Below, in pieces: positions 17,387 to 39,882 of a DNA stretch of 46,024 nt; position 1 is the first letter of the stretch, and every line of letters begins with the position of its first letter. Source of the DNA: Blastococcus sp. MG754426 (GTDB lineage Bacteria > Actinomycetota > Actinomycetes > Mycobacteriales > Geodermatophilaceae). The translations under genes and the position numbers were made by a program. The stretch spans positions 1 to 46,024 of the forward strand of contig NZ_SSXC01000027.1 in NCBI RefSeq assembly GCF_021699055.1. The letters are read 5' to 3'. The notes under the pieces are model-generated. The model saw only the letters and a program-made list of their open reading frames with translations, searched no databases and had not been told where the DNA came from.

Positions 17387-18061
17387 TCAGCGACGGCGGC
17401 CGAGGCGGTAGCCGACCAGGATGCCGATGAGCGTCAGCGCGGCCCCGCCCAGAGCGCCCAGCGCGAGCGTCTGCACGTCGCCGGACGGCCCGGCGGGAGC
17501 GCCCGCGCGGCCGGCGAACACCTGCGGCGCGGCCTCGGCAGCCGGGGCGGCGTGCTTGCCGGCCGGCTCCGCCTCCGTCGAGCTCACGGCGGCGGCGGAC
17601 GGGACCGCCACCGGCACCGCGGCCCCGGTCAGCTCGGCGTCGATCGCCTTGAAGAACTGGCCGGCCATCCGCTTGGCGACCCCGGTGATCATCCGCTGGC
17701 CCACGCCCGCCACCGGCCCGCCGATCACGGCGTCCGCGGAGTAGGTGAGGTCCGTGGCGCCGTCCTCGGCCGGCGCCAGGGTGATCGTCACCGTCGCCCG
17801 CGCGTTCCCCGGCGCACCCGCGCCCGACGCGTGCATGACGTAGGACTTCGGGTGCTCCTTGTCCGACAGGCGCACCTCGCCGGCGTACGTCCCCTTGATC
17901 GCGCCGACGCCGACGGAGACGTTCATCTTGTACTCGTCGTCGCCGACCTGCTGCAGCGACTCGCAGCCGGGGATCGTCCGCGCGAGCACCGCCGGGTCGG
18001 TGATCACGGCCCAGACCTTCTCGGGGTCGCCGTGCAGCACCGCAGAGCCGTCGAGCTTCAC
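17387..18061 (-). CDS. coxG: CoxG-like SRPBCC protein with C-terminal membrane anchor
   Basis: This 224-residue protein is an N-terminal CoxG/SRPBCC domain (about 1-150; MKLDGSAVLHGDPEKVWAV, IPGCESLQQVGDDEYKM). An Ala/Pro-rich linker follows, then one C-terminal hydrophobic helix (LALGALGGAALTLIGILVG) ending in RRR. In carboxydotrophs CoxG recruits the CO dehydrogenase to the membrane. Here it likely anchors the hydroxylase encoded upstream. Its GTG start overlaps the large-subunit stop by 4 bp, so it is the last gene of that operon. Confidence 0.9.
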   Translation of the reverse strand: MKLDGSAVLHGDPEKVWAVITDPAVLARTIPGCESLQQVGDDEYKMNVSVGVGAIKGTYAGEVRLSDKEHPKSYVMHASGAGAPGNARATVTITLAPAEDGATDLTYSADAVIGGPVAGVGQRMITGVAKRMAGQFFKAIDAELTGAAVPVAVPSAAAVSSTEAEPAGKHAAPAAEAAPQVFAGRAGAPAGPSGDVQTLALGALGGAALTLIGILVGYRLGRRR

Positions 18062-20481
18062 GCCATCACTCCAGTCCCCGCCCGGCGCCCGGCCGTCGCG
18101 GTCATCTCCGAATCAGGGGAACGCACCAGGTCGTACAGCTCGGTGGGCGAGATCGGCATGGCGGCGATCCGCCGCCCCACCGCGTCCTCGATCGCCGAGG
18201 CCAGCGCCGCCGTCCCCGGGATGACGCCGGCCTCGCCGGCGCCCTTGATGCCCAATGGGTTCAGCGGCGAGGGCGTCTGCTGGTGGTCGATGTCGATGTC
18301 GGGCACCTCGGAGGCGTACGGCATCAGGAAGTCCATGAACGAGGCGTTCTGCAGCTGCCCGTCGGCGTCGTAGGCCATCCGCTCGTACAGCGCCCCGCCC
18401 ACGCCCTGGGCGACCCCGCCGTGCACCTGGCCCTCGACGATCATCGGGTTCACGACGTTGCCGCAGTCGTGCACCACCGCGTACTTCACGACGTCGATCT
18501 CCCACGTCGCCGGGTCGATCTCCACGATCGCCGCGTGCGCGCCCGAGGCGAACGTCGAGCGGATCGGTGAGTAGTAGTCGCGGTGCTCGAGCCCGGGGGC
18601 GTCGCCCTCGGCCACCGGCGGCTTGTCGTCGTCGCCGGCCTTCGCGAACTGCGTCGCCTGCTTGGCGGCCTCGTCGAACGCGTACCGCAGCGGGTTGGAC
18701 AGCACGGCGACGGTGCGCAGCGGGATCGACGTCCCCGGCACGCCCTTGACCTGCACCAGGCCCGCGTCGATCTCCAGGTCCTCCGGGGAGGCCTCCAGCA
18801 CGTCCGCGGCGATCCGCAGCGCCTTCTCCCGCACACCCCGGGCGGCCAGCGCGATCGCGTTGCCGCTCATCACCGCGGCCCTCGAGGCGAACGTGCCGAC
18901 GGCGTAGCCGAAGCGGCGGGTGTCGCCGGTGGTCACCTCGACGTCCTCGATCGGCACCCCGAGCTCCGAGGCGACGATCTGGGCGAACGCCGTCTCGTGG
19001 CCCTGCCCCTGCGAGGTCAGGCCGGTCGACACGAGCACCTTGCCGCTGCCGAGCACCTGCACGTGCCCGCCCTCGTAGGGCCCGGGCCCGGTGCCCTCCA
19101 CGTACATCGCCATGCCGACGCCGAGCAGCCTGCCGCGCGCCTCGGCCTCCTCGCGGAGCCGCTCGGCCTCGGACCAGCCGACCAGGTCCTTGAGCTTGTC
19201 CAGGAGGCCCGGGTAGTCCCCCGAGTCGTAGATGACCGGCCGGCCGTCCTGGAACGTCAGGTGGTGGTCGTAGGGGAACTGGTCGGGCTGGATCAGGTTC
19301 CGCTCGCGGACCACGGAGCGGTCCAGGCCCAGCTCGTCGGCGATGCGGTCCATCGTCCGCTCCATCGCGTAGCAGCCCTGCGGCCGCCCGGCGCCGCGGT
19401 ACGGCGTCACGATCACGGTGTTGGTGAACACCGACTCGACGACCACCCGGTACACCGGGATCGCGTACGGCCCGACCAGCTGGGTCGCCGTCACGATCGG
19501 CACGATGATCCCGTAGGGGGTGTAGGCGCCGTTGTCGTGCCAGATGTGCACGTCCAGGGCGGTGATCCGGCCGTCGTCGTCGTACCCGACGGTGATCTCC
19601 TGCCGCTGCTGGCGCTCGTGCGCCGAGCCGATGAAGTGCTCGCGCCGGTCCTCGGTCCACTTGACCTCGTGCCGGAGGTTGATCGCGGCCATCGGCACCA
19701 GCAGCTCCTCGGGCCACGGGTGCACGATCTTCACGCCGAAGCCGCCGCCGACGTCCGGCGCGATGACCTCGACCGCGTCCAGGCTCAGCTCCAGCTTCGC
19801 CGCGATCGCCGCGCGCACCGACGTCGACGCCTGGGTGCTCGTGTAGACCCGCAGCGAGCTGTCGTCGGGGTCCCACTTGGCGTGCACGCCCTTGCCCTCC
19901 ATCGGCATGCAGGCGCTGCGCTCGATGTACTGGGTGAAGCTCAGGGTCCGCGGGGAGCTCGCCAGCACGGGCTCGACGTCGCCGGTCTCCTGGTGGTGCC
20001 GGGCCGCGACGTTGTCGGGGATCTCCTCGTGCACGGCGTGCGCGGCCTCGCGGGCGGCGTCCACGCCGACGACGACGGGGAGCTCCTCGTAGGTGACCAC
20101 GATGCGGTCGCAGGCGTCCTCGGCGACGTACCGGTCGGTGGCGACCACCATGACCACCGGCTCGCCGACGTGGTTGACCTCGCCGTTGGCCAGCGGGAAC
20201 CCGGTGCGCGGCGCGTGCAGCTGCGGGTGCGGGATGAGCACCGGCAGCGGCTCGGCCATGGGGCCGGTGAGGTCCTCGTAGGTGTAGATCGCCACCAGGC
20301 CCTCGACGTCGAGCGCCTCGTCCACGTCGATCGAGACGATCCGCGCGTGGGCGTGCGGCGAGCGGACGAACGCCGCGGCCAGCGCCTTCGACCCGATGTC
20401 GTCCAGGTAGCGGCCCCGGCCGGTGATCAGCCGCTGGTCCTCCCGCCGGCGGACCGGCTCACCGAACAGCTTCGTCGTCAC
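18058..20481 (-). CDS. Molybdenum hydroxylase large subunit (CoxL/XdhA family)
   Basis: This 807-residue molybdopterin-binding subunit of the xanthine dehydrogenase/CO dehydrogenase family has an N-terminal FGEPVRRREDQRLITGRGRYLDD, GGGFGVK in the cofactor region, and GQGHETAFAQIVASELG. The catalytic glutamate region is KGAGEAGVIPG. The active-site loop reads PYRGAGR, like form II CoxL and unlike the AYRCSFR loop of true CO dehydrogenase, so the substrate is probably an N-heterocycle or aldehyde, not CO. I start at GTG 20481 after a GGAGG-rich stretch. A long inverted repeat separates it from the small-subunit gene. Confidence 0.92.
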   Translation of the reverse strand: MTTKLFGEPVRRREDQRLITGRGRYLDDIGSKALAAAFVRSPHAHARIVSIDVDEALDVEGLVAIYTYEDLTGPMAEPLPVLIPHPQLHAPRTGFPLANGEVNHVGEPVVMVVATDRYVAEDACDRIVVTYEELPVVVGVDAAREAAHAVHEEIPDNVAARHHQETGDVEPVLASSPRTLSFTQYIERSACMPMEGKGVHAKWDPDDSSLRVYTSTQASTSVRAAIAAKLELSLDAVEVIAPDVGGGFGVKIVHPWPEELLVPMAAINLRHEVKWTEDRREHFIGSAHERQQRQEITVGYDDDGRITALDVHIWHDNGAYTPYGIIVPIVTATQLVGPYAIPVYRVVVESVFTNTVIVTPYRGAGRPQGCYAMERTMDRIADELGLDRSVVRERNLIQPDQFPYDHHLTFQDGRPVIYDSGDYPGLLDKLKDLVGWSEAERLREEAEARGRLLGVGMAMYVEGTGPGPYEGGHVQVLGSGKVLVSTGLTSQGQGHETAFAQIVASELGVPIEDVEVTTGDTRRFGYAVGTFASRAAVMSGNAIALAARGVREKALRIAADVLEASPEDLEIDAGLVQVKGVPGTSIPLRTVAVLSNPLRYAFDEAAKQATQFAKAGDDDKPPVAEGDAPGLEHRDYYSPIRSTFASGAHAAIVEIDPATWEIDVVKYAVVHDCGNVVNPMIVEGQVHGGVAQGVGGALYERMAYDADGQLQNASFMDFLMPYASEVPDIDIDHQQTPSPLNPLGIKGAGEAGVIPGTAALASAIEDAVGRRIAAMPISPTELYDLVRSPDSEMTATAGRRAGTGVMA

Positions 20482-20499
20482 CGCAGACCCCCCTCCCGT

Positions 20500-20573
20500 G
20501 CGTTTTGTGCACATAACGCCGCTCGCGCGACGCGCGGCGGGCGGCAGAACGCGGCGTTATGTGCACAAAACGC
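20500..20573. repeat. Large inverted repeat inside the hydroxylase operon
   Basis: Two perfect 23-nt arms (20500-20522 and 20551-20573) flank a 28-nt loop. Each arm contains the palindrome TGTGCACA. It lies between the small- and large-subunit genes and would form a strong RNA hairpin. It could tune subunit ratio by mRNA processing or stability, or be a dispersed genomic repeat. Confidence 0.75.
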
Positions 20574-20584
20574 CGTCGGACCCA

Positions 20585-21100
20585 TCAGGCGCCGTCCTTC
20601 ATCGCGGCCGCCGCGTGGTGCACGGCCTTCTTGATGTTGGCGTAGCCGGTGCACCGGCAGAGGTTGCCGCCGACCATGTCGTCGACCTCCTCCTCGGTGA
20701 GCTCGGCCGAGTTGTCGCGGCCCTCGAGCCCGGCCGCGATCGTCATGAGGAAGCCCGGCGTGCAGAACCCGCACTGCAGGGCGTGGCACTCGCGGAACGC
20801 CTCCTGCACCGGGTGCAGCACCTGCCCGCCCTGGTGGTCCTCGCGCGCCAGGCCCTCCACGGTGCGCACCTCGGCGCCGTCCACCTGCACGGCCAGCATC
20901 AGGCACGAGCGCACCGCGGCGCCGTCCACGACCACCGTGCAGGCGCCGCAGACGCCGTGCTCGCAGCCGACGTGGGTGCCGGTGAGCCCCAGGTCGTGGC
21001 GCAGCGCGTCGGAGAGCAGCCGGCGCACCGGCACCGTGGCTTCACGTGGAACACCGTTCACGGTGACCGTGATGGTGCGCTCGCTGTCGATGCTCGTCAT
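20585..21100 (-). CDS. Molybdenum hydroxylase [2Fe-2S] subunit (CoxS family)
   Basis: This 171-residue electron-transfer subunit carries two iron-sulfur clusters. The plant-type cluster ligands are in CEHGVCGACTVVVDG and a later Cys in RSCLML. The second cluster has CGFCTPG and CRCTGY. It passes electrons from the Mo cofactor to the FAD subunit. It starts at ATG 21100. It is the second gene of the operon, 91 bp after the FAD-subunit stop. The coding sequence includes TTCACGTGGAA (21041-21051), a weak parS-like match. Confidence 0.94.
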   Translation of the reverse strand: MTSIDSERTITVTVNGVPREATVPVRRLLSDALRHDLGLTGTHVGCEHGVCGACTVVVDGAAVRSCLMLAVQVDGAEVRTVEGLAREDHQGGQVLHPVQEAFRECHALQCGFCTPGFLMTIAAGLEGRDNSAELTEEEVDDMVGGNLCRCTGYANIKKAVHHAAAAMKDGA

Positions 21101-21191: not shown

Positions 21192-22067
21192 TCACTCGCG
21201 CGCCGCTCTCGCGCCGGCCTCGGCGGCGGCGTCCGCCAGCGTCCGCTCGGTCAGCACCCCCACCAGCAGCCGCCGGTAGTCGGCGCTGGCGTGGATGTCG
21301 GTGTCCGGGTCGACCAGGGTGCGCGCGAGCGCCCCGGCGGCGGCCCAGTCGGCCTTCTCCGCCGGCGAGCCGGCGACGGCCTCGGTCAGGTCGTGCACCT
21401 CGGGGGTCAGCCCCACCGAGACGTAGGAGGCCAGCACCCGCTCGACCCGGCGGTCCTCGGACAGGGTGACGACGACGCCGGCGCCGCAGACCGCGTAGTC
21501 GCCCTTGCGCCGGGCGACCTCGGCGAACGCGGTGCCCGACCGCGGCGGCAGGGCCGGGAACGTGGCGGCGGTGACGACGGCGCCCGCGGGGATCGAGGTC
21601 TCCAGGGGGCCGACGAAGAAGTCCCGCCAGCCGACGACCTCGCTGCCGGCCGTCGTCGCCACGGTGACCGATCCGTCGGTGAGCGCGAGCACCGAGGTCA
21701 TCTCGCCCGAGGGGTCGGCGTGCGCGATCGAACCGACGGTGGTGCCGCGGTTGCGGATCGCCGGGTGGGCGACGTTCGCCGTCGCCCGGCCCAGCAGCGG
21801 CTGCACCGCGGCCGCGCCCCCGTGCCGGAGCAGCGCGTCGTGCCGGACCAGCGCGCCCACCGTCACGGCGTCGTCGGTCACCTCGACGGCGTCCAGGTCG
21901 GGGATGCGGTTGATGTCGACCAGCGTGGCGGGTGCGGCCAGGCGCATGGACAGCAGGGGCAGCAGCGACTGGCCGCCTGCGAGCACCTTGGCGCCCTCGT
22001 CGGACAGGACCGCCAGCGCTTCTCCCAGGGTGCTGGGATCGGCGTAGCGGAAGGGGGCGGGCTTCAC
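21192..22067 (-). CDS. Molybdenum hydroxylase FAD subunit (CoxM/XdhB family)
   Basis: This 291-residue FAD-binding subunit has AGGQSLLPLLSMRLA at the first FAD loop and the TVGS-type second loop in RNRGTTVGSIAHADPSGE. The C-terminal half is the CoxM C-domain (RRKGDYAVCGAGVVV). It takes electrons from the [2Fe-2S] subunit and passes them to an acceptor. Start GTG 22067 is the first codon of the operon FAD-FeS-Mo-CoxG. The promoter lies about 60-90 bp upstream and is nearly identical to that of the permease gene. Confidence 0.93.
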   Translation of the reverse strand: MKPAPFRYADPSTLGEALAVLSDEGAKVLAGGQSLLPLLSMRLAAPATLVDINRIPDLDAVEVTDDAVTVGALVRHDALLRHGGAAAVQPLLGRATANVAHPAIRNRGTTVGSIAHADPSGEMTSVLALTDGSVTVATTAGSEVVGWRDFFVGPLETSIPAGAVVTAATFPALPPRSGTAFAEVARRKGDYAVCGAGVVVTLSEDRRVERVLASYVSVGLTPEVHDLTEAVAGSPAEKADWAAAGALARTLVDPDTDIHASADYRRLLVGVLTERTLADAAAEAGARAARE

Positions 22068-22282: not shown

Positions 22283-23758
22283 TCAGCGGTTGCGGGTGTC
22301 CGTCCCGGGGGTGTTGCCACCCAGCACGCCCGGTCGGCCCACCTCGTCGACCGACGACGGGTCGGAGCTGACCTGGTCGCCGGCGTCGTGCCCGAAGGTG
22401 CTGCCGGCGGCCGGGTGCGCGCCCTCGCGGAGCAGCGCCGCCTTCATGTCCGCCGGGGCCAGCGCCCGCGCCACGTGCCAGGCGACGACCGCGACGATCG
22501 AGCCGAGCGCGATGCCGGTGAGGGAGAAGTCCTCGGAGAAGTTGAGGGTCACGTTGCCGATGCCGATGATGATCCCGGCGGCCAGCGGCACCAGGTTGAT
22601 CGGGTTGGCGAAGTCGACCCGGTTCTCCTTCCAGATCTTCGCGCCCAGCAGGCCGATCATGCCGTAGAGGACGACCGTGATCCCGCCGAGGACGCCACCC
22701 GGGACGATGTTGATGAGCGCGCCGAACTTGGGGATCAGGCCGAGCAGGATCGCCACGAGCGCGGCCACGTAGTACGCCGCCGTCGAGTAGACCCGCGTGG
22801 CGGCCATGACGCCGATGTTCTCGGCGTAGGTGGTGGTGGGGGAGCCGCCGACCGACGTGGCGACCATGGTGGCGAAGCCGTCGGCCCCGACCGCCCGGCC
22901 CATGTACGGGTCGAGGTCGCGCTTGGTCATCTCCGCGACCGCCTTCACGTGGCCGGCGTTCTCCGCCACCAGGGCGATCACCGCGGGGATCACCAGCAGG
23001 CTGAAGTTCAGCGAGAAGGACGGGGCGGTGAAGTCGGGCAGGCCGAACCAGTCGGCGTCGGCGACCGAGTCGAAGTTGATCCGGTCGCGGGTGCTCTCCA
23101 CGCCCGTGCCGTCCGGCGAGGTGATCGGGCCGGCCGTGACGTCCAGCAGCACCGACAGCAGGTACCCGAAGACGAGGCCGAGCAGGATCGAGATGCGGGC
23201 GAGGAAGCCGCGCAGCGCCAGCGAGGCGATGATCACGAAGGCCATCGTGGCCAGGGCGACCCACTGGTCCTGCGGCCAGTACACGCCGGCGGCGACCGGG
23301 GCCAGGTTGAAGCCGATCAGCATGACCACCGCGCCGGTCACGGCGGGCGGCAGCACCTTGTTGATCAGGCCGAGCCCGGCGAAGTGGATGAGCACACCGA
23401 CGAGCGCCAGGACGGCACCGGCGACGAACAGCGCGCCGACGACGTCGCTCGAGTCGCCGCCGTTCGCCCGGATCGCGGCGACGCCGCCGACGAAGGCGGC
23501 GCTGGTGCCCAGGTAGCTCGGTACCCGGTTCTTCACGATCAGCAGGAAGATGATCGTGGCGACGCCGCTCATCATGATGGCGAGGTTGGGGTCCAGGCCC
23601 ATGATGATCGGGAAGACGAAGGTCGCCCCGAACATCGCGACGACGTGCTGCGCGCCGATCCCGACGGTGCGCGGCCAGGAGAGGCGTTCGTCAGGGGCGA
23701 CGGCCTCTCCCAGTGGGGGCGTCTTACCGTCCCCGTAGAGCTTCCAGCCGAACGACAT
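22283..23758 (-). CDS. NCS2 nucleobase:cation symporter (uracil/xanthine permease)
   Basis: This 491-residue inner-membrane transporter has about 14 hydrophobic segments. Family marks are QHVVAMFGATFVFPIIMGL, VALVAENAGHVKAV (conserved Glu), SPTTTYAENIGVMAATRVYS (second substrate-binding Glu) and NPINLVPLAAGIIIGIGN. It is closer to the UraA/RutG side than to the PurP group. The hydrophilic tail of about 60 residues is Gly/Pro/Asp-rich. It starts at ATG 23758 with GGAGG at 7-nt spacing. The shared promoter sequence with the hydroxylase operon argues that it imports the substrate of that enzyme. Confidence 0.92.
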   Translation of the reverse strand: MSFGWKLYGDGKTPPLGEAVAPDERLSWPRTVGIGAQHVVAMFGATFVFPIIMGLDPNLAIMMSGVATIIFLLIVKNRVPSYLGTSAAFVGGVAAIRANGGDSSDVVGALFVAGAVLALVGVLIHFAGLGLINKVLPPAVTGAVVMLIGFNLAPVAAGVYWPQDQWVALATMAFVIIASLALRGFLARISILLGLVFGYLLSVLLDVTAGPITSPDGTGVESTRDRINFDSVADADWFGLPDFTAPSFSLNFSLLVIPAVIALVAENAGHVKAVAEMTKRDLDPYMGRAVGADGFATMVATSVGGSPTTTYAENIGVMAATRVYSTAAYYVAALVAILLGLIPKFGALINIVPGGVLGGITVVLYGMIGLLGAKIWKENRVDFANPINLVPLAAGIIIGIGNVTLNFSEDFSLTGIALGSIVAVVAWHVARALAPADMKAALLREGAHPAAGSTFGHDAGDQVSSDPSSVDEVGRPGVLGGNTPGTDTRNR

Positions 23759-23856
23759 TGAGTGCCTCCTCGACGTGCACTTCCGATGCGGTCCGGTGCT
23801 GGTCGACAGGGGTGTGCCCGCACCGGAGGGCGCCAATGTGGCACGGCTCGCACCCT

Positions 23857-23941: not shown

Positions 23942-25447
23942 ATGAGCCCCTCAGCCCCCTCCGGTGGAGACGCCGCGGTCTCGGTGCAGCTGCGATCCGG
24001 CGTCTACGCCGACTCGGTCAAGCTGATGCAGGTGAGCCGCCGGATCGGTGCCCGGGAGGGCGTCTCCGCCGTCCTCGTCGCCATGGCCACCCCGCTGAAC
24101 CTCGAGCTCGCGGCGAACATGGGCCTCGCGCCCGAGGAGCCGACGAGCCCCGAGCAGCTGCTGATCGCCGTCCGCGCGGCCGACGAGGGGGCGCTCGCCG
24201 AGGCGCTCGCCGACGTCGACGCCGCCCTGGCCGAGCGGGAGCGCTCGACCGGCACCGCCGCCGCGATCCCGCACCGCACCACCGGCGCCGGGCTCGACGA
24301 GCTCTCCCCCGAGTCGCCGGCCCTGGCGATCGTCAGCGTGCCCGGCCAGTACGCCGCCGCCGAGGCCGCCGACGCGATCGCCGCCGGGCGCAGCGTCCTG
24401 GTCTTCTCCGACGGCGTCCCGGTCGAGCAGGAGGTCGCCCTCAAGCGCGCCGCCCACGACGCCGGGGTGCTCGTCATGGGGCCCGACTGCGGGACGGCGA
24501 TCGTCTCCGGCGTCGCCCTCGGCTTCGCCAACGTCGTCCGCCCCGGGCCGGTGGGCCTCGTGGCGGCGAGCGGCACCGGCGCCCAGCAGGTCTCCTGCCT
24601 GCTCGACATGGCCGGCGTCGGCGTCTCGCACGTGCTCGGCGTCGGCGGGCGCGACCTCAAGGAGGAGGTCGGGGGGCTTGCCACGCTCGACGCGCTCGCC
24701 GCCCTGGACGCCGACCCCGCCACCGAGCGCGTGCTGCTGGTGTCCAAGCCACCCGCGCCCTCGGTGGCCGCCGCGGTCACCGAGGCCGCCGGCAAGCTGT
24801 CGGTGCCGGTGCGATCCGCCGTCCTCTCGCCCGAGAGCCCCGACCTGACCGCCGCCGTCGAGGCGCTGCTCGCCGACATGGGGCTCGACGTCCCGGTGTG
24901 GCCGTCGCGTCCGGGCCCCGCCGAGGCCGCCGTCCCCGGCGCAGCGCTCAAGGGGCTCTACTCCGGGGGCACGCTGGCCGACGAGGCGATGCTGCTGGCC
25001 TCCCCGGCGCTCGGCGGCATCCGCTCGAACATCCCGCTGCAGCCGGACCTCGACCTCGGTACGGACCTGTCCGCCCCCGGCCACCTGGTCGTCGACTTCG
25101 GCGACGACGCCCTCACCGTGGGCCGCGCGCACCCGATGATCGACCCCACGCTGCGGCTGGAGGCGATCGAGGCGCTCGCCGCCTCCGACGAGCCCGCCGT
25201 CCTGCTGCTCGACGTCGTCCTCGGGTACGGCGCGGACCCCGATCCCGCCGGCGCGCTCGTGCCGGCGCTGACCGCCGCCCGCGAGCGGCGCGCGCTGCCG
25301 GTCGTCGTCGCGCTGATCGGCACCGAGGGCGACCCGCAGGGCTGGTCGCGGCAGGCCGACGCGCTCGCCGCCGCGGGCTGCGCGGTCTTCTCCTCCAACG
25401 CCGCGGCCACGCGGTACGCCCTCGACCTGCTGGGAGCCTCCGCATGA
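23942..25447 (+). CDS. fdrA: FdrA/AllF-like subunit of an oxamate carbamoyltransferase-type enzyme
   Basis: This 501-residue protein has the FdrA layout of succinyl-CoA-synthetase-like domains: VQLRSGVYADSVKLMQVS at the N-terminus, MGPDCGTAI and FANVVRPGPVGLVAASGTGAQQV in the CoA-ligase-like domain, then VGGRDLKEEVGG and VSKPP. In E. coli, FdrA, YlbE and YlbF (AllFGH) have been linked to oxamate carbamoyltransferase of allantoin fermentation. I use ATG 23942 because a -10 lies exactly 7 nt upstream, while GTG 23924 would fall inside the promoter. Its stop overlaps the DUF1116 gene by 4 bp (ATGA). Confidence 0.9.
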   Translation: MSPSAPSGGDAAVSVQLRSGVYADSVKLMQVSRRIGAREGVSAVLVAMATPLNLELAANMGLAPEEPTSPEQLLIAVRAADEGALAEALADVDAALAERERSTGTAAAIPHRTTGAGLDELSPESPALAIVSVPGQYAAAEAADAIAAGRSVLVFSDGVPVEQEVALKRAAHDAGVLVMGPDCGTAIVSGVALGFANVVRPGPVGLVAASGTGAQQVSCLLDMAGVGVSHVLGVGGRDLKEEVGGLATLDALAALDADPATERVLLVSKPPAPSVAAAVTEAAGKLSVPVRSAVLSPESPDLTAAVEALLADMGLDVPVWPSRPGPAEAAVPGAALKGLYSGGTLADEAMLLASPALGGIRSNIPLQPDLDLGTDLSAPGHLVVDFGDDALTVGRAHPMIDPTLRLEAIEALAASDEPAVLLLDVVLGYGADPDPAGALVPALTAARERRALPVVVALIGTEGDPQGWSRQADALAAAGCAVFSSNAAATRYALDLLGASA

Positions 25448-28541: not shown

Positions 28542-28572
28542 GGACCACCTCGGGGTGCTCGCGGATGAGTAG

Positions 28573-31158: not shown

Positions 31159-31175
31159 GGCGGGCGGAGCGGGCC

Positions 31176-31772: not shown

Positions 31773-32694
31773 ACAGCTCCGCCAGGCCCTCGCCGTCGAT
31801 GAACTCCTCCGGTACGTAGCGCTCGTCCAGCGCCTCGACCACGCTCGCCTCCTCAGCGGCGCTGCGGAGCGTCTCCTCGAGCGTCTGCTGCACGTCGTCG
31901 GGCAGCCCGGCGGGCGCGATGACCCCGAAGGTGGTCGTGCTCTGGACGAGCTCCGGGTACCCCTCCTCGACGAAGGTGGGGGCGTCGACGTAGGGCAACG
32001 GCTCCTCGCTGCCGACGGCCAGCACCCGCAGGTCGCCCGCCTCGATGGCCGGCAGCACGTCCTGCGAGAGGTTGAGGAAGCCGGCGGTCACGTTGCCGCC
32101 GAGCAGCGCCGTCTGCACCTCGGAGTTGCCGTCGAACGGGACGACGGTCAGCGGCACGTCGTAGAGCTGGGTGATCCGCCGCGTCTCGGCGGCGTGCGTG
32201 TTGGTGGCGCCGGGCGTGCCGACGGTGACCGCACCGGGCTCCTCCTGGGCGGCGCCGAACAGCGACGCCAGGTCCTGGTGGGGTGAGTCGGCGGGCACCA
32301 CGATGCCCGACGGGACCCGGGTGACGACGCCGATCGGGGTGAAGTCCTCGCGGGTGTAGCCGACGTCGTTGGTCAGGTAGTTGAGCACCGCCGTCGGCAG
32401 CGCGGTCATGGAGAGGGTGTGCCCGTCGGCGTCCTGCTGGATCAGCTCCTGGTACGCGGTCGCCCCCGAGGCGCCCGGGAGGTTCTCGACGACGACGGTC
32501 TCGCCCAGCTCCTCCTGCATGTGCGAGGCCAGGGCGCGCGCCGCGATGTCGGTCGGCCCGCCCGCGGTGTACGGGACCAGCAGCCGGACGTTCTGGGACG
32601 GGAAGCCGCCCTCGCCCGGCCCGGGGTCGTCGGAACCGCACGCGGTCAGGGCGGTGGCGGTGAGCAGGGCGGCGAGCACGCGGGAAGTTCGCAT
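31729..32694 (-). CDS. Tripartite tricarboxylate transporter substrate-binding lipoprotein (TctC)
   Basis: This 321-residue exported lipoprotein has a signal peptide MRTSRVLAALLTATALTAC ending in the lipobox LTAC. A TctC/Bug fold follows: VRLLVPYTAGGPTDIAAR, VVVENLPGASGATAYQEL, VGTPGATNTHAAETRRITQ and FGVIAPAGLPDDV. It would bind a carboxylate outside the membrane. The partner membrane proteins TctA and TctB are not encoded in this window, so it is an orphan here. ATG 32694 is chosen for the signal peptide. Its 3' end overlaps kptA tail to tail. Confidence 0.93.
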   Translation of the reverse strand: MRTSRVLAALLTATALTACGSDDPGPGEGGFPSQNVRLLVPYTAGGPTDIAARALASHMQEELGETVVVENLPGASGATAYQELIQQDADGHTLSMTALPTAVLNYLTNDVGYTREDFTPIGVVTRVPSGIVVPADSPHQDLASLFGAAQEEPGAVTVGTPGATNTHAAETRRITQLYDVPLTVVPFDGNSEVQTALLGGNVTAGFLNLSQDVLPAIEAGDLRVLAVGSEEPLPYVDAPTFVEEGYPELVQSTTTFGVIAPAGLPDDVQQTLEETLRSAAEEASVVEALDERYVPEEFIDGEGLAELFTETEETFRGVLDG

Positions 32695-32803
32695 GGGGGC
32701 TCCTGATGTGGGGACGGCGTCGCCGTCGCACCGGGTCACCGCCCGTGTCCGGCGGTGCGCCCATCGTGCGGCATCCCGGCCGGCCCGGCATCTGCGCCGC
32801 CCG

Positions 32804-33895
32804 TCAGGCGGGGAGCCGCACCGCCAGCAGGGCGATGTCGTCGTCGCCCCGGCTCCCCAGGGCGCTGAGCAACCCGTCGCACATGCGGCCCAGCGGTTCG
32901 CGGCCGATGTCCCGCAGCGTCCGCACCAGCCAGGTGGTGCCGTCGTCGAGGGTCATGCCGCGGCGCTCGACCAGCCCGTCGGTGTACAGCAGCAGCGTGT
33001 CCCCCCGGCGCAGCAGCACGTCGTGGTCGGTGCGGGCCGGCCCGTCGCCGGGGCCGGCTCCCAGCAGCCGGTCGGGCATCCGCTCCAGCACCTCGACCCG
33101 CCCGTCGGCCCGCACGACCACCGGCGGCGGGTGCCCCGCGTTGGACCACTGCAGCGGCACCGCGTCGGCGCCCCCGTCCCGCGGGTCGACGGTGGCCACG
33201 GCGACCGTCACCAGCGTGTCCAGGCCCAGGCCCGCGAGGACGTCGTCCAGCGCGGTGAGCGCGGCCGCGGGGGAGCCGTGCCCGACCCGGGCCAGGGCAC
33301 GCAGCATGCCGCGGGTCTGCGCCATGGTCGCCGCCGCCGGGGCGTCGTGCCCGGCGACGTCGCCGATGACCAGCATCGTCCGTCCGTCGGTGAGCGGGAA
33401 GGCGTCGTACCAGTCCCCGCCGACCTGGGCGTCCCGCGCGCCGGGCAGGTAGCGGGCGGTGGTCTCCAGCCCCGGGACGGTCGGGACCTCGCCCAGCAGG
33501 GCCCGCTGCAGCGTCTCCCCCGTACGGACGGCGGCCCGCGTCGCCGCGGCCTCCGCGCTGAGCCGGGCGACGTGGGCCTCCCGGCGCAGCCGCAGCTGGC
33601 AGGTGAGCACGGCGAGGGCGCCACCGAGGGCGACGGCGACCAGGCGGATCGTCTGCGCCACCGCCGTCTCGGCGGTGTACTGCTGGCTGTAGAGGCCCAG
33701 CAGGGTGGCGACGACGAAGGCGGCCGCGGCATAGGCGACCGTGGCCCGCCGTCCCAGGAAGGTGGCCGACGCGAGCGGGGCGATGACGCTGAGGCCGAGC
33801 ACCACCTGGCCGCGGCCGCTGACGATCTCGGCGGCGACGACGAGCAGCAGCACGAGGGCCGGGAGGGCAGCGTTGACGCGCCGTGACCGCTTCAC
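32804..33895 (-). CDS. Membrane-anchored SpoIIE/PP2C phosphatase
   Basis: This 363-residue protein has three or four N-terminal membrane helices (about 10-100: ALPALVLLLVVAAEIV, VVLGLSVIAPLASATFLG, VAYAAAAFVVATLLGLY, IRLVAVALGGALAVLTC). A linker helix and a cytoplasmic PP2C-type domain follow. Motifs are GGDWYDAFPL, LVIGDVAGHDAPAAATMAQ, SNAGHPPPVVV, LLYTDGLVERRG and a final GDDDIALLAVR. It likely acts in a general stress partner-switching pathway as a membrane sensor. It starts at GTG 33895 with GAGGGGG upstream. No anti-sigma or antagonist gene is nearby. Confidence 0.9.
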   Translation of the reverse strand: MKRSRRVNAALPALVLLLVVAAEIVSGRGQVVLGLSVIAPLASATFLGRRATVAYAAAAFVVATLLGLYSQQYTAETAVAQTIRLVAVALGGALAVLTCQLRLRREAHVARLSAEAAATRAAVRTGETLQRALLGEVPTVPGLETTARYLPGARDAQVGGDWYDAFPLTDGRTMLVIGDVAGHDAPAAATMAQTRGMLRALARVGHGSPAAALTALDDVLAGLGLDTLVTVAVATVDPRDGGADAVPLQWSNAGHPPPVVVRADGRVEVLERMPDRLLGAGPGDGPARTDHDVLLRRGDTLLLYTDGLVERRGMTLDDGTTWLVRTLRDIGREPLGRMCDGLLSALGSRGDDDIALLAVRLPA

Positions 33896-33984
33896 CGCAT
33901 CCCCCTCGAGCCGCCCGGCGACGGGGCGCGTACGGCGCTCAACCTAGAGGACGGGCACCGGTGGACAGGTCGTGGCGGACGCGG

Positions 33985-35229
33985 TCACGCCCCCGTGCCG
34001 GGCAGCGCGTCCAGCGGCAGCCCGACGTAGAGCATGCCGATCAGGGCGCCTCCGTCGTCGTGCAGCCCGGTGTAGGCGGTGAAGTACGGCCGCTCGGCCA
34101 CCGTGGCCGCGCCGGTGTAGGTCTGGCCGGCGAGGACGGCCGCGAGCACGGGGTTGGGGCGGCCGTCGGGGTCGGTCCGGGAGATGGCGGTGCCGATGTT
34201 GCGCCGGCCGGCCGGGTCCAGCACCGTCGTCGCCACCCGCACCATGCCGGCGTCGCCGTCCAGGCGCTGGAACAGCGTGCAGCTGCCCCCGACCTCGCGG
34301 ACCACGTCGTCCACGAGCACCGCCGGGCGCCGGGGGTCGTCGGTGCGCTCCAGCGGCCGGTCGCCGAGGAGCAGGTCGGGGAGCTCCGCGGTGCGGGTGG
34401 CCCCGGTGGCCTGGTCGCGCACGGTCAGCCGGGTGCGGCCCTCGCCGAGCCGCGCGCCGCCGAGGCCGGCCAGCCGCTGCTCGGCCACCGCCAGCGCCCG
34501 GCGGACGTAGACCACCCGCTGGCTCTCGGCCAGCTGCCCGACGGCCTCGCTGATCCGGGCGGAGCCGCCGGCGGCCCGCTCGACGTTCTGCACGACGCGG
34601 TCGGTGGCCGCCCGCTGCTGCTCGACGGCGGCGGCGATGGTGTCCTGCGCCTCGGCGATGGAGCCCAGCGTGCCGGTGATCCGGCGGACCGCCTCGACGG
34701 CCTGCTGGGTCTCCCGCCGCACCGCGGTGATCTGCGCGTCGATGTCGCGGGCGGCCTGCGCCGTCCGGTCGGCGAGCTCCTTGACCTCGTCGGCGACGAC
34801 GGCGAACCCGCGGCCGAGCTCGCCGGCGCGGGCGGCCTCGACGGAGGCGTTGAGCGCGAGGAAGCGGCTCTGCTGGCTGATCGCCCCGACCAGCCGGACG
34901 AACCGGGTGATCGACTCGCTGGCGGCCTGCAGCGCGGCGATCCGCTCGTCGACGGCGCGCGCGTCGTGCACGGCCTCCTCGGCGACGACCGAGGCGCGGC
35001 CGGTGCTGGCGGAGATGTCGCCGATGGCGGCGCGCAGCTCGGCGAGCGAGGCGGCGGCCTCCGCCGAGGTGTCGGAGACCTCGCGGGAGGCCCGCGCGAG
35101 GACGCCGGCCTGCTGGGCGGCGTCCTCCATGCTGGTGTCCCGCTCGGCGGCGCGCCGGGGTGCCCGCGGTGCCGGGACGGCCGCCGCCGGGGCGAGCGGA
35201 GCGGGGCCTGACGACGCGGACGGACGCAC
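33985..35229 (-). CDS. Soluble chemoreceptor-like protein: MCP domain then Cache-like domain
   Basis: This 414-residue protein has no membrane segment. The N-terminal half is a methyl-accepting chemotaxis signalling coiled coil with the hallmark hairpin [36 protein letters not shown] near residues 115-150. The C-terminal part (about 280-410) looks like a Cache-type sensor: [20 protein letters not shown], then [25 protein letters not shown] and IGMLYVGLP. This is the reverse of the usual receptor order and leaves both domains cytoplasmic. It starts at GTG 35229 after AGGAGG. No che genes are in the window, so the output is unknown. Confidence 0.87.
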
Positions 35230-35348
35230 GACCCGTTCCCTCCTGCAGTTGCACCTGCCCGCGGGCCGGGGAGGTTCCGGGACACGCTAGGCCGTACCCC
35301 CGCCGCCCCTGGAAGGCGCGCCGGGAGGTGGCCGAGACGACTCGGCCG

Positions 35349-35381
35349 AGCCATTCCGGAGCCATTCCGGAGCCATTCCGG
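35349..35381. repeat. Three tandem 11-bp repeats
   Basis: AGCCATTCCGG is repeated three times without change (35349, 35360, 35371). The spacing is one helical turn, in the 325-bp spacer between the divergent chemoreceptor-like and secreted-protein genes. Binding of a multimeric regulator is possible. The rest of this spacer (35230-35554) shows no gene. Confidence 0.7.
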
Positions 35382-35554
35382 TCACCGTCCCGGAACTGTC
35401 GACTCGGCGACTCCGGCTTCTTCTGGGACAGGAGTTGAGAAGGCGCGGGGCCCTGCCGAGAACTGGGGCGTCAACGAATCGGCGCAGCCAGCACGTGGAC
35501 CGGGTGACCAGCATCCCGGCGGGTCTGGGCCACTGAGAGAACAGGACCACTGCC

Positions 35555-35956
35555 ATGCGCCTGTCGCGCGTTCTGCTCGCCGGTGTCGCGGTCGCCGGCG
35601 TCGCCGCCACCTCCTCCGCCTTCACCGCGGGCAACACCAACAACGCGACGAGCGATGACGTCGTCGGCTACATGGACTACACGGCGACGGGTGTCACCGT
35701 CAGCAACATCGCCTACACCCCCCTCGGCACGGACGCCTCGAAGCTCGACATGATCGTCTTCACGATCACCGAGGACGCCACCGACATGAACGCCCTCCTG
35801 ACTCTCCGTGCGGGAGCCACCCAGATCACCGGTAGCCCCTTCACCTGTGGCTACGAAGCGGTCGCCACGACCACCCACACCATCAAGTGCGACGTCTCCA
35901 ACACGATCGACATCGAGACGATCACGGAGGTCGGCCTGACGGTCACGTCCAAGTAG
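35555..35956 (+). CDS. Small secreted protein, probable SipW-dependent substrate
   Basis: This 133-residue protein has an N-terminal signal (MRLSRVLLAGVAVAGVAATS followed by SAFTAGN) with a likely cut near residue 22. This resembles the alternate signal class processed by SipW-type peptidases. The mature part is Thr-rich and acidic with predicted beta strands (YMDYTATGVTVSNIAYTPL, KLDMIVFTITEDA). Two Cys (FTCGYE, IKCDVS) could form a disulfide. I know no named family. ATG 35555 follows a weak ribosome site (GAGAACAGGACC). The adjacent signal peptidase suggests it is exported and perhaps assembled as a surface polymer, by analogy with TasA; that is speculative. Confidence 0.8.
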   Translation: MRLSRVLLAGVAVAGVAATSSAFTAGNTNNATSDDVVGYMDYTATGVTVSNIAYTPLGTDASKLDMIVFTITEDATDMNALLTLRAGATQITGSPFTCGYEAVATTTHTIKCDVSNTIDIETITEVGLTVTSK

Positions 35957-35970
35957 TCGATCCCTCTTCG

Positions 35971-35997
35971 GCGGAGCGGCTCGCAGAGCCACTCCGC
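35971..35997 (+). terminator. Intercistronic hairpin (attenuator) between secreted protein and peptidase
   Basis: A 12-bp stem with one mismatch and a 3-nt loop (GCA), centred at 35984. It starts 15 bp after the stop codon. It may lower peptidase expression relative to the substrate. Confidence 0.6.
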
Positions 35998-36016
35998 TCC
36001 CCGTGGACAGGGCCCC

Positions 36017-37723
36017 ATGACCGCCGCATCACGAGTCGCCAGCACCAGCGCCGTCATCGCGCTGGTGCTGGCGACCGTGTGGTTGTTCTGGCCCGCCGGC
36101 CTCGGCGGTGGCACGACGTACGTCTCCACCTTCGGGGACAGCATGGAGCCAGGGTTCTCCGCCGGTGACCTCGCCATCCTCAGCAGGGCCGGTTCCTACT
36201 CGGTGGGCGATGTGGTCGCCTACCAGAGCGAGTCGCTGAACACGATCGTCATGCACCGCATCGTCGCCGCGGACGCCGAGGGGTTCGTGACCCAGGGCGA
36301 CAACAACGACTGGCTCGACGAGGACCGCCCCGCCCAGGAGGAGATCCTGGGCCGGCTGTTCGTCCGCATCCCCCAGGGCGGCACGGCGCTCGAGGCGATC
36401 GCCTCCCCGTGGGTGCTCGGCGCCGTCGGTCTCGCGGCCTCCCTCGTCCTCTCCGCGGCACGCCGGAAGCGCGGCGGCTCCCGCGCCCGGGTGCTCCGCC
36501 GCCGGCTGCCCGCCCTGCGCCGGCCGTCCCTCGCCGTCCCGTCCTTCCCCGTGCCGTCGATCTCCGTGCCCGCGGTGCGGCTGCCCCAGGTCCGCCGCGG
36601 CACGCCGACGGCGCTGGTGCGGGCCCGCGCCCGGCAGGCCGCGCTGGCCGCCGGGGCCGTCGCGCTCGTCGCCGCGCTCGGCGCCGGCGCCCTCTTCGCC
36701 GTCCCCGGCACCGAGACCGTCGAGGAGCCGGCCACGGTCACCCAGCAGGGGCGCTTCTCCTACACCGGGACCGCCGAGCGCGGCACCACCTACCCCGACG
36801 GGACGGTGGCGACCGGCGACACCGTCTGGACCAGGCTCTCGACCGGGCTGACCGTCTCCTACGAGGACACCGTCACCGGCCCCGACCTCACCGGCCTCCA
36901 GGGCGCGCTGCGCCTCGACGTCACCGTGCAGGCCGCCGACGGCTGGACCACCTACCTGACCAGCGGCCCCGTCGTCGGCTACGCGGGCGGGGTGGCGACG
37001 GCGTCGGTCGACGTCGACGCCGCCCGCGCCGCCGAGGTGCTGGCGCAGCACTACGCCGAGGTCGGGGCCTCGGGCAGCACCGCGACGCTGACCGTCACCC
37101 CCACCGTGGCGCTGTCCGGCAGCGTGCGCGGCACCGCCTTCGAGGCGGGTTCCCCGGCCGGGCTGGACTTCGCGCTGGACCCGACGGCGCTGCGCCTGGC
37201 CGGCGACCCCGGGACCGTCCTGACCACGCTGACCCCGACCTCCGTGCCGGTGACGACGGTCGGCCCCCGCTCGTTCGACGTCCTGGCGCTGTCGGTGCCG
37301 ATCGGCGTCGCACGGGGCGTCGCGCTCGCCGTGCTGGTGCTCGCGCTGGCCGTCGCCGGCGTCGGGGCTCTGCTCGGCCGGGCGGGCCGCGGTGACGCCG
37401 CCGACGAGTTCGTCGTGCGGCACGCCGACCGGATCGTCCCCGTGGCGGGGCTCGCCGCGGGCGGCACCGTCATCGACGTCTCGGACGCGGACTCCCTCCG
37501 CCGTGTGGCGGAGCGCTTCGACACCGTCGTCCTGCACCACGCCGGCCCGGACGCGGACGTCTTCGCCGTCCGCGACGTGGACGCCACCTACCGGTTCGTG
37601 ATCCCCGGGGGAGCCGAGCGCCGCGGGCGGCCGCCCGTCCCCGCGCCGTCCCGGCCGGTCGCGGACCAGGAGCTCACCTCACCGCTCCCGCCGGTGGCGG
37701 GCCTGCACGGCCTCGTGGCCTGA
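36017..37723 (+). CDS. SipW-type signal peptidase I fused to a DUF5305-like region
   Basis: This 568-residue membrane protein has two parts. Residues 1-150 are an S26B (archaeal/ER-type) signal peptidase: a first helix, GDSMEPGF with nucleophile Ser42, VMHRIV with His80 in place of the bacterial Lys, QGDNND with Asp95, and a second helix. After an Arg/Pro-rich linker comes another helix and an extracellular beta-rich domain (GRFSYTGTAERGTTYPDG...). A further helix and a cytoplasmic tail (VIDVSDADSLRRVAERFDTVVLHH, TYRFVIPGG) follow. This second part resembles DUF5305 proteins. The fusion next to a small exported protein suggests a dedicated secretion and assembly unit. Confidence 0.88.
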   Translation: MTAASRVASTSAVIALVLATVWLFWPAGLGGGTTYVSTFGDSMEPGFSAGDLAILSRAGSYSVGDVVAYQSESLNTIVMHRIVAADAEGFVTQGDNNDWLDEDRPAQEEILGRLFVRIPQGGTALEAIASPWVLGAVGLAASLVLSAARRKRGGSRARVLRRRLPALRRPSLAVPSFPVPSISVPAVRLPQVRRGTPTALVRARARQAALAAGAVALVAALGAGALFAVPGTETVEEPATVTQQGRFSYTGTAERGTTYPDGTVATGDTVWTRLSTGLTVSYEDTVTGPDLTGLQGALRLDVTVQAADGWTTYLTSGPVVGYAGGVATASVDVDAARAAEVLAQHYAEVGASGSTATLTVTPTVALSGSVRGTAFEAGSPAGLDFALDPTALRLAGDPGTVLTTLTPTSVPVTTVGPRSFDVLALSVPIGVARGVALAVLVLALAVAGVGALLGRAGRGDAADEFVVRHADRIVPVAGLAAGGTVIDVSDADSLRRVAERFDTVVLHHAGPDADVFAVRDVDATYRFVIPGGAERRGRPPVPAPSRPVADQELTSPLPPVAGLHGLVA

Positions 37724-37813: not shown

Positions 37814-38917
37814 TCAGGCCTTGACGATCGCGGCCACCGGGCCACCGCCGGACGGGCCCTGGTGCACCGCGGCCACCGAGACGAACACCGCCGGGTCGCC
37901 GGTCACCGACGCGGTCACGCCGCCGACGCACGCCTTGATCTGGCGGTGCCACGAGACGTCGGAGTCGTCCAGCATCGCGTTGCGGCGCCCGCGCACCTTG
38001 CCGTCCGGCGAGGCCTCGCACTTGAGGAACACGTTGACCAGCCGGTCGCCGAGGTCGGTGTGGTGCGGGCGCTCGGGCAGCTCCAGGCCGGCGTCGCGGA
38101 TCGCGGCCCAGATGCCGTCCTGGTCCAGCGCGTCCTTCATGACCGAGTGGCCGACGCGGTAGCTGCCGCCGTGGCCGCGGGCGTTGCCGACGACGACGAT
38201 CTGCGCCCGGTCCAGCTCCACGCCCGACGAGCACGACGCGACCGACGAGTACAGCGACAGGTCGCGCATGATCTGCTCCTGCGTCGGCAGCTCGATCTCG
38301 CCGAGCGCCACCGCGATCCCCAGCGCCGTCGTGCCGTTGGAGATGTCCATCGAGCCGTGCGGCTCCTCGAGGATCGTCGTCTCCCCGCGCTGGTGGGCGT
38401 CGCGGATCGTGTCGATCGTCAGCAGCGGCGTCTTGGTCTGCACGTAGTGCACGTCGGCCGGGTCGGTGATGCCCGCGGCCGCCATCGCCTTCTTCACGCC
38501 CTCGGCGACCTTCTCGACCATCGCGACGCGGCCGATGTCCTCGGGCAGCAGGACGTCGCTCATGGCGTAGCCCACGGTCAGCCGCGGCTCGTCGGTCTTC
38601 TCGACGGCGTCCTCGGGCAGCGTGGCGAAGATCGTGGCGTGCGGGCTGATGACGCCGTCGGTGCCGCCGGACCACACGATCGGGATGTCGCCGACCTCCT
38701 CCTTGCTCCGCGAGCCCTTCTCGAGCAGGACCTCGCGGAAGGCGCGGTCGGCGATGATCCGCGTGTAGTCGTTGATCCCGCCGTTGCCCTCGGTCTTGCC
38801 GATGACGGCGACGACGCGGTCGGCCTCCATCACGCCGTCGTCGATGAGCTTGGCGAGCTCGGAGGCGTCGCTGACGTTGTGCAGCGGGACCTTGCGGACC
38901 TCGATCGGTGCGGGCAT
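37814..38917 (-). CDS. Ring-opening amidohydrolase (barbiturase / cyanuric acid amidohydrolase family)
   Basis: This 367-residue enzyme of the AtzD/TrzD/barbiturase family has three repeated modules, each giving a Lys and a Ser to the active site. They read as GKTEGNGG (Lys41) with WSGGTDGV (Ser83), QTKTPLL (Lys162) with ASCSSGVEL (Ser230), and [11 protein letters not shown] (Lys299) with QGPSGGGP (Ser356). All three pairs are present, so it should be active. The family opens cyanuric acid to carboxybiuret or barbituric acid to ureidomalonate; sequence alone does not decide which. It starts at ATG 38917, 11 nt after carbamate kinase, so the two are one operon. Confidence 0.93.
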
Positions 38918-38928
38918 GCGGGTTCCCT

Positions 38929-39882
38929 TCAGGTGGTGGTGACGACGGTGCCGGCGTCGTCGCCGCGGACGGCGTCGGCGATGTGGTCGAGCGAGGTGAT
39001 GACGGAACGGGCACCGCCCGCCTCGACGAAACGTAGGGCGGCCTCGACCTTGGGGCCCATCGAGCCGCGGGCGAACTCGCCGGCGGCGGCGAGCTCGCGC
39101 AGCTCCGCGACGGTGACCCGGCCCAGCGGGCGCTGCGCGGGGGTCCCGAAGCCGACCATCACGTTCGGGACGTCGGTGGCGATGACCAGGGTGCCGGCGT
39201 CCACGTCGCGGGCGAGGATCGCGGCGGTCAGGTCCTTGTCGATGACCGCCTCGACGCCGCGCAGGGCGTGGCCGTCCACGCGGTCGTCGACGACCGGGAT
39301 GCCGCCACCGCCGGCGCAGACGACGACGAACCCGGCCGCGGCCAGGGCGTGGATGGCGGCGGAGTCGACGACGGACAGCGGCTCCGGCGAGGCGACGACG
39401 CGGCGCCAGCCCTTCTCGCCGCGGTCCTCCCACGTCTGCCCGAGCGAGATGAACCGTTCCGCCCGCTCGCGGGGGAGGAAGCGGCCGACCGGCTTCGAGG
39501 GCTCGGCGAAGTGCGGGTCGTCGCCGTCGACCAGCGTGCGGGTCACCAGCGCGGCGGTGCGCTGGGGCAGGCGGCGCGCGGCGAGGGCGGCGTCGAGCTC
39601 GTCGGCGACGGTGAAGCCGATGGTGGCCTGGGTCTGGGCGACGTTCCAGTCCAGCGGCACCGGCGGCACCTCGTGCGCGGCGAGCTCGTTCTTCACCAGG
39701 AGGTTGCCCACCTGCGGGCCGTTGCCGTGGGTGAGCACCACCTGCACGCCGGCGGCCACCACCTCGGCGACGTGCCCGGCGGCCTGCCGGATCGCGTCGC
39801 GCTGCGCCTCCGGGGTCGCGGAGCCGTCGGGGCCGGTCATGGCGTTGCCGCCGAGGGCGATCACCACGCGGGTCGACGTCAC
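38929..39882 (-). CDS. arcC: Carbamate kinase
   Basis: This 317-residue amino-acid-kinase-fold enzyme has [53 protein letters not shown] and [13 protein letters not shown], all family landmarks. It converts carbamoyl phosphate and ADP to ATP, CO2 and ammonia. No arginine deiminase or ornithine carbamoyltransferase is present. It shares a promoter type with fdrA-DUF1116 and an operon with the ring-opening amidohydrolase. Together these argue that carbamoyl phosphate comes from a ureide. GTG 39882 is leaderless by position: the -10 ends 7 nt upstream. An allK-type role fits. Confidence 0.95.

Follow-up and report, generated by a model that had tools for sequence, protein, structure and literature searches.

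A candidate oxidative pyrimidine route with an AllFGH and carbamate kinase end in Blastococcus and other actinobacteria

The FdrA-YlbE-YlbF enzyme phosphorolyses oxalurate to oxamate and carbamoyl phosphate, from which carbamate kinase then makes ATP. Oxalurate, a homologue of ureidomalonate, is the compound on which AllFGH acts, and this is the sole activity shown for the enzyme (PMC11326118; published work is cited here from excerpts, by PubMed Central identifier). According to the same excerpts, AllFGH has no similarity to the aspartate transcarbamylase family, and among enterobacteria it is present in urease-negative species and absent from Klebsiella, E. coli O157:H7 being an exception (Kim and Kim, PMC11326118). 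Pyrimidines can also be converted to barbiturate, from which barbiturase and ureidomalonase produce malonic acid and urea (PMC3758960). This barbiturate route has been called rare, with AtzD/Bar homologues in 3% of 6423 genomes (PMC3758960), and its frequency has been put at about 0.3% (PMC5366886). Here we analyse a contig of Blastococcus sp. MG754426 (NZ_SSXC01000027.1) that carries genes for a barbiturase, for AllF (FdrA) and AllG (DUF1116), and for a carbamate kinase, a molybdenum (Mo) hydroxylase and a nucleobase permease. The window, as we call the entire stretch analysed, is the whole contig of 46,024 bases (74.7% G+C), labelled C144 in the host genome G000, which comprises 4.7 Mb in 224 contigs. 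The original prediction, made from this sequence, was that barbiturase, FdrA-DUF1116 acting on ureidomalonate, and carbamate kinase together replace the ureidomalonase step.

Our analysis makes it likely that these genes serve an oxidative breakdown of pyrimidines that conserves energy at its AllFGH/carbamate kinase end. In such a route, the NCS2 permease would import uracil, the Mo hydroxylase would convert it to barbiturate, and barbiturase, judged by its family membership, would open the ring to give ureidomalonate, an N-acylurea that exceeds oxalurate by one CH2. AllF-AllG-AllH would then split ureidomalonate with phosphate into malonamate and carbamoyl phosphate, and carbamate kinase would use the latter and ADP to yield ATP, ammonia and CO2. 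An amidase or a nitrilase-family enzyme may hydrolyse malonamate to malonate, which a class III coenzyme A (CoA) transferase and a carboxyltransferase-like protein of related clusters may convert to acetyl-CoA. Rhodococcus would instead release urea, for urease, by means of a ureidomalonase, which is probably the amidase encoded next to barbiturase. The gene evidence for the AllFGH route in many actinobacteria is strong; the enzyme steps are predictions from sequence. The central idea of the original prediction is favoured by the kinship of the ring opener to barbiturase, by co-inheritance, by the adjacency of the kinase, by the lack of AllG and a linked kinase in Rhodococcus, by the lack of AllD above its cut-off and by the lack of urease in the host. 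It stands in part, because the functions are read from sequence, that of the Mo hydroxylase is presumed, and the cluster amidase is ambiguous and could be ureidomalonase.

The ring-opening amidohydrolase of the AtzD/TrzD family in the window (37814-38917, minus strand) groups by sequence with barbiturase and not with the cyanuric acid hydrolases, in keeping with the opening of barbiturate assigned to it in the original prediction. Compared with solved structures, it scored 650 bits against 5hwe ('Barbiturase') and at most 341 bits against the other six sequences, a margin of 309 bits. The barbiturase of Rhodococcus erythropolis NBRC 15567 matched 5hwe with 805.7 bits and one difference in the printed alignment, and the window protein is 82% identical to R. 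erythropolis barbiturase; the closest barbiturase among the matches listed in the species genome collection, from Blastococcus sp. KM273128, is 99% identical. The conserved Arg of cyanuric acid hydrolases (Arg188, located through their SRG motif) is replaced by Asn in each of the 16 barbiturase-clade sequences aligned and retained in the outlier G031. A departure from this Arg has been reported for the barbiturase subgroup, with glutamine named as the residue (PMC4051656), whereas the sequences seen here, including 5hwe, show Asn. The same excerpts describe barbiturase as inactive on cyanuric acid. Although the NCBI model for cyanuric acid hydrolase also accepts the window protein (473 bits, cut-off 360), we set this identity aside in view of the nearest solved relative and the Asn for Arg. 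One further barbiturase gene, in G209 (C1:430503-431631), is split in two pieces, so that either the gene is disrupted or the sequence contains an error.

Co-inheritance was assessed in 296 whole genomes drawn evenly from the class, host included, with the same set searched for every family; here and below, Fisher tests and counts are uncorrected for relatedness, and p-values (1e-44 and below) serve as a guide only. An AtzD-family gene was found in 67 genomes, AllG in 72 and AllH in 64, and the large-subunit model NF040766 of the Mo hydroxylase was above cut-off in 62 (206 have some weaker relative). The AtzD family and AllG occur together in 61 genomes (odds ratio 201, p=1.6e-44) and in 30 of 115 genera, with the AtzD family in 36 genera and AllG in 38. 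Once G031, G093, G100 and G122 are dropped, which are the four lowest-scoring complete AtzD-family genomes and all lack AllG, 61 of 63 AtzD-family genomes have AllG; barbiturase-clade genomes without it are G206 (100% complete) and G014 (72% complete). The AtzD family and NF040766 are also shared by 61 genomes, every AllH genome has AllG (64/64), and 59 of the 296 genomes have all four, AllH being missing from G119 and G020, and an AtzD-family gene from the NF040766 genome G266. In a tree of 62 AllG sequences, rooted on E. coli and without branch support shown, the barbiturase-linked AllG group together; among barbiturase-less genomes, G003, G288 and G116 lie outside this group and G108 (80% complete) lies inside it. 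The tree supports the link to barbiturase without deciding it. As a separate observation, the AllF-AllG-carbamate kinase genes of G003 (L078:9023-13595) and G288 (L079:7152-11723), both without barbiturase, adjoin a gene for an isochorismatase-like hydrolase, a relative of which is encoded close to the G031 gene that resembles those of cyanuric acid hydrolases (L081:7944-11010). This hydrolase is named here from inspection of its sequence, and the arrangement resembles that of biuret hydrolase beside allFGHK in nitrifiers.

Gene order points in the same direction. In the window, the carbamate kinase gene (38929-39882, minus strand; NF009007 302.5 bits, cut-off 266; TIGR00746 341 bits, under its cut-off of 358) lies 11 bases upstream of barbiturase. 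When the species genome collection was scanned with an alignment of 15 barbiturase sequences, at least 552 relatives were obtained, and in 73 of the best 80 loci a carbamate kinase gene stands directly upstream of barbiturase on the same strand (71 by gene calling, and L168 and L193 by tblastn). The gap in the 71 gene-called loci has a median of 13 bases and ranges from -8 to 116; in the seven exceptions (L166, L174, L177, L180, L199, L203 and L208), tblastn with the window kinase found none in the locus. In Geodermatophilus obscurus, Goekera and Klenkia marina (L154, L158, L160), the whole set of kinase, barbiturase, AllG, AllF, permease and Mo subunits lies within 16.7 kb. Genes called by script were also clustered in 23 stretches from 20 genomes, which include the window and, for contrast, five genomes in which one of the two markers is missing; the caller misses some genes, AllH being called in 5 genomes and found in more by Pfam. 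AllG, the AtzD family and carbamate kinase were each present in 17 of the 20 genomes, the 2Fe-2S subunit in 15, the permease and FAD subunit in 14, the Mo large subunit, CoxG and AllF in 13, HyuA and HyuB in 12 and a PucR regulator in 11. The neighbour families named by Pfam include HyuA, HyuB, PucR, a MobA-like protein, the class III CoA transferase and AllH, and further a carbon-nitrogen hydrolase, an amidase and a carboxyltransferase; none of the 11 neighbour families annotated, all conserved or frequent, was recognised as that of an allantoin gene.

All three subunits of oxamic transcarbamylase are encoded in the host. AllF (23984-25447, plus strand; PDB 3dmy) falls slightly below the cut-off of the FdrA model NF004760 (401 against 433 bits), and its gene overlaps by 4 bases that of AllG (25444-26862, plus strand; PF06545 308 bits; PDB 3clq), while AllH lies outside the window (C151:9313-9624; 93.8 bits, cut-off 25), adjoining a gene for a PucR-type regulator. 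Identity to the E. coli proteins is 39% for AllF, 49% for AllG, 42% for AllK and 34% over 130 residues for AllH. A shifted AllF/AllG gene boundary found no support, as the end of E. coli AllF scored 34 against the start of window AllG and shuffled sequences scored 25 on average and 44 at most. As to the substrate, allD lies beside fdrA-ylbE-ylbF-ybcF in E. coli, and the AllD model was above cut-off in none of the 296 genomes of the class, other sources of oxalurate not having been searched for; in a control set it accepted one of 14 genomes, presumably E. coli, at the top of the list. Weak AllD relatives occur in 51 genomes, 17 of which are among the 61 with the AtzD family and AllG, and that of the host reaches 199.5 bits against a cut-off of 496. 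The substrate of AllFGH in barbiturase-bearing actinobacteria is, on this genomic evidence, probably not oxalurate, and ureidomalonate is proposed instead because the genes sit with barbiturase and no AllD is above cut-off.

The barbiturase genomes that lack AllG provide a contrast. AllG was found in 23 of the 27 genomes from the best 80 loci that were searched whole, and was not found in Modestobacter muralis (L166), Rhodococcus sp. IEGM 1409 (L174), R. erythropolis NBRC 15567 (L177) and R. fascians (L180). An adjacent kinase gene is present in 20 of the 23 genomes with AllG and in none of the four without it (p=0.002); in these four, tblastn found no carbamate kinase in the fetched loci, the rest of the genomes not having been searched for the kinase. 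R. erythropolis and R. fascians nevertheless retain in their clusters the permease, the FAD, 2Fe-2S and Mo subunits, CoxG, HyuA, HyuB, and the CoA transferase and carboxyltransferase genes, and each of the three Rhodococcus loci has an amidase gene after barbiturase, the amidases being 77-79% identical to one another. We know of no gene sequence for ureidomalonase. Strain JCM3132 is reportedly the one used in the studies of barbiturase and ureidomalonase. It is the same strain as R. erythropolis CCM2595, which uses pyrimidines (PMC3961730). Thus Rhodococcus, the source of the urea-releasing ureidomalonase, is also the genus that lacks AllG and a linked kinase. Two other genes were noted at these clusters. 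In R. erythropolis, a gene for a class III aminotransferase separates the amidase from a second permease (L177:12768-13991), and downstream of the R. fascians cluster there is a cytosine permease gene (379.7 bits, cut-off 326), which fits pyrimidine use.

Urease is distributed in a manner partly consistent with these two endings. No urease alpha subunit was found in the host genome, and among the genomes searched whole for AllG, urease is present in 4/4 of those lacking AllG and in 8/23 of those having it. When the 19 urease-bearing genomes among the 61 of the class sample with AllG and barbiturase are added, urease is found in 27 of 84 genomes with AllG and barbiturase and in 5/5 barbiturase genomes without AllG (p=0.005), a contrast that leaves out G014 (72% complete, no urease found) and G154 (weak urease match) and in which the five are not independent, since three are Rhodococcus. 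With urease in 27 of the 84, AllG is not confined to urease-negative genomes, and class-wide avoidance of urease was rejected as a rule, the comparison of AllG and barbiturase genomes with the rest showing a trend at most (p=0.11).

For the step before ring opening, the window encodes a Mo hydroxylase on the minus strand, with genes for a CoxG-like protein (17387-18061; Pfam COXG 102.5 bits; the CoxG cluster is found in 13 of the 20 compared genomes), the large subunit (18058-20514; NF040766 1472.5 bits, cut-off 950), the 2Fe-2S subunit (20585-21100; Pfam Fer2_2 and Fer2) and the FAD subunit (21192-22067; Pfam FAD_binding_5 and CO_deh_flav_C). The large subunit, a candidate uracil/thymine dehydrogenase, is labelled 'CO dehydrogenase group 5' by NCBIfam NF040766. 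The motif AYxCSFR is the loop of CoxL in form I CO dehydrogenase; it had no match in any of 20 large subunits, all of which carry the loop YRGAGR. The occurrence of the Mo hydroxylase with barbiturase suggests that it is a uracil/thymine dehydrogenase, and the group 5 label is probably a misnomer in most members of the class that carry it, because 61 of the 62 NF040766 genomes also have an AtzD-family gene. The NCS2 permease follows on the same strand (22283-23836, start possibly at 23758); it matches Pfam Xan_ur_permease and the NCBIfam model ncs2 above cut-off, and scores 382 bits against the RutG model, below the cut-off of 759. The Mo hydroxylase operon and the permease are divergent from allF-allG.

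For the steps after AllFGH, the interval between CoxG and HyuA is informative. In 24 loci it holds an amidase gene in 11, a gene for a nitrilase-family hydrolase in 7, other genes in 2 (G016 and G030) and nothing in 4, namely L166, L177, L226 (R. fascians) and L187, from a metagenome-assembled genome; L166, L177 and L226 all come from genomes without AllG. That two unrelated amide hydrolases share one place, and that both are missing where urea is released, fits malonamate as their substrate. The cluster amidase has malonamidase E2 as one of its solved relatives, though a far more distant one than the closest match. The amidases that follow barbiturase in Rhodococcus belong to the same superfamily at about 40% identity to the cluster amidases, with 41-42% between the Rhodococcus candidate and relatives of the host amidase, and the amidase of G019 is divergent (35%). 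M. muralis, which has no AllG, carries an amidase 52-63% identical to the cluster amidases, apparently on the barbiturase contig near HyuB. The cluster amidase could therefore be either a malonamidase or, as the presence of a cluster-type enzyme without AllG would allow, ureidomalonase itself. The cluster CoA transferase is nearest to models of succinate-glutarate and oxalate CoA-transferases, below their cut-offs, and the solved structures nearest to HyuAB by sequence are an N-methylhydantoinase entry and a 5-oxoprolinase entry. HyuAB may have a role in the thymine (5-methylbarbiturate) branch. If it spends ATP, the net energy gain would be smaller.

Several observations weigh against the proposed route. 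Weak AllD relatives are present in 17 of the 61 genomes with AllG and barbiturase, the host among them, and 19 of the 61 have urease. The complete genome G206 has barbiturase and no AllG, an AtzD-family gene is missing from 11 of the 72 genomes with AllG, and none of these counts is corrected for relatedness. AllH and HyuA of the host sit on other contigs, and HyuAB is conserved in the AllFGH and Rhodococcus variants alike, without an obvious role. Finally, the case of M. muralis means that the cluster amidase may be ureidomalonase, and if it were so throughout, AllFGH and the kinase could act on another ureide or in parallel, their linkage reflecting a grouping for nitrogen scavenging. We regard this as rather unlikely. 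Cluster-type amidases do occur both with AllG (G045, G237, L181) and without it (M. muralis), the host has one, and the Rhodococcus amidases are of the same superfamily; such an explanation nevertheless fails to account for why AllG and barbiturase are nearly always inherited together and why the kinase and barbiturase genes are paired, and neither the nitrilase-family protein that takes the place of the amidase in 7 of 24 loci nor the empty interval of Rhodococcus without AllG sits well with it.

The sole activity shown for AllFGH (PMC11326118) gives some weight to another possibility, that it is here too an oxalurate enzyme of purine breakdown, whose genes merely neighbour a distinct pyrimidine operon and share a PucR regulator with it; a regulator of this family occurs in 11 of the 20 compared genomes, and one stands beside the host AllH. 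This is improbable, given that AllD was above cut-off in 0/296 genomes (within a search that did not extend to other oxalurate sources), that the annotated neighbour families include no recognised allantoin gene and that AllG and barbiturase are common to 30 genera. If the ring opener were a cyanuric acid hydrolase, AllFGH might split carboxybiuret or biuret. The acceptance of the protein by the NCBI model would agree with this, as would the presence of nitrifier allFGHK beside genes for biuret and triuret hydrolases (PMC12625717), but the barbiturase is nearer by 309 bits, Asn replaces Arg, and barbiturase is inactive on cyanurate in the excerpts of PMC4051656, so that we give this reading very little credence. 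That the genes are chance neighbours without a common function is scarcely believable: they do form two separated blocks in the window, with other genes between, yet co-inheritance and a shared gene order recur in many genera, the 16.7-kb clusters included. The oxidative pyrimidine route ending in AllFGH and carbamate kinase is accordingly the reading we prefer.

With regard to the layout of the window, every gene named in the original prediction is present with a Pfam or NCBIfam match, but the set is divided into two blocks, with about 11 kb between AllG and the barbiturase/carbamate kinase pair, and AllH is on C151. The host HyuA gene (C24:1645-3705; 72% identical to a cluster HyuA, with a HyuB-like frame next to it, L138:1645-5615) and amidase gene (C181:62506-63918; 84% identical to the G. 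obscurus amidase) are likewise on other contigs, and all three were hence invisible to that prediction. The intervening genes (26929-37723) match other Pfam families or none, are taken to lie outside the pathway and include none of the families common to the compared clusters; among them are genes for PilZ, S4, two SpoIIE, KptA, a chemotaxis receptor and a signal peptidase. In chemotaxis receptors the Cache domain usually precedes the signalling domain. In the receptor encoded at 33985-35229 (minus strand), the signalling domain (residues 83-235) comes ahead of the Cache domain (241-406). At 35555-37723 (plus strand), a small protein with a signal-like start precedes a signal peptidase I protein that has a weak match to DUF5305 in its C-terminal part, and a gene for an RNA 2'-phosphotransferase of the KptA family (31176-31772, plus strand) adjoins a SpoIIE phosphatase gene.

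Taken more broadly, we lean, with some reserve, towards a widespread and undescribed actinobacterial pathway in which the group 5 'CO dehydrogenase' would act as uracil/thymine dehydrogenase, followed by barbiturase, AllFGH as a malonamate carbamoyltransferase and carbamate kinase, yielding one ATP per ring and making urease unneeded. The view that this combination had not been described is borne out to the extent that we found no description of an AllFGH-barbiturase pathway in the open-licence literature, although a subscription paper could hold one. That 67 of the 296 class genomes have an AtzD-family gene contrasts with the reported rarity of the barbiturate route. If the proposal is true, AllFGH gains a second substrate, candidate genes become available for uracil dehydrogenase and for the ureidomalonase of Rhodococcus, and actinobacteria would join the enterobacteria (PMC11326118) as a second case of carbamoyl phosphate replacing urea.

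Among known systems, the oxamic transcarbamylase AllFGH of E. coli with AllK (PMC11326118) is alike in its homologous subunits and in having carbamate kinase in the set, but its genes lie beside allC, allD and allE, whereas here they are found with barbiturase and no AllD is above cut-off. The ureidoglycine carbamoyltransferase of Rubrobacter xylanophilus (PMC4016543) likewise phosphorolyses a ureide to carbamoyl phosphate and has a kinase gene adjacent; it differs in being a relative of aspartate transcarbamylase that acts on allantoate and is encoded in a purine cluster. In comammox bacteria and ammonia-oxidizing archaea, allFGHK lies beside biuret hydrolase and so, as here, outside an allantoin cluster, yet according to the excerpts of PMC12625717 those genomes have no atzD and the enzyme is proposed for oxalurate. 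The oxidative pyrimidine pathway of R. erythropolis (Soong et al., 2001, 2002, via PMC3758960 and PMC4051656) differs in its end products, urea and malonate, and in having no AllG in the genome, no kinase found in the locus and an amidase after barbiturase, while the barbiturase itself, at 82% identity, and the genes for the permease, Mo hydroxylase, HyuAB, CoA transferase and carboxyltransferase are shared with the clusters described here.

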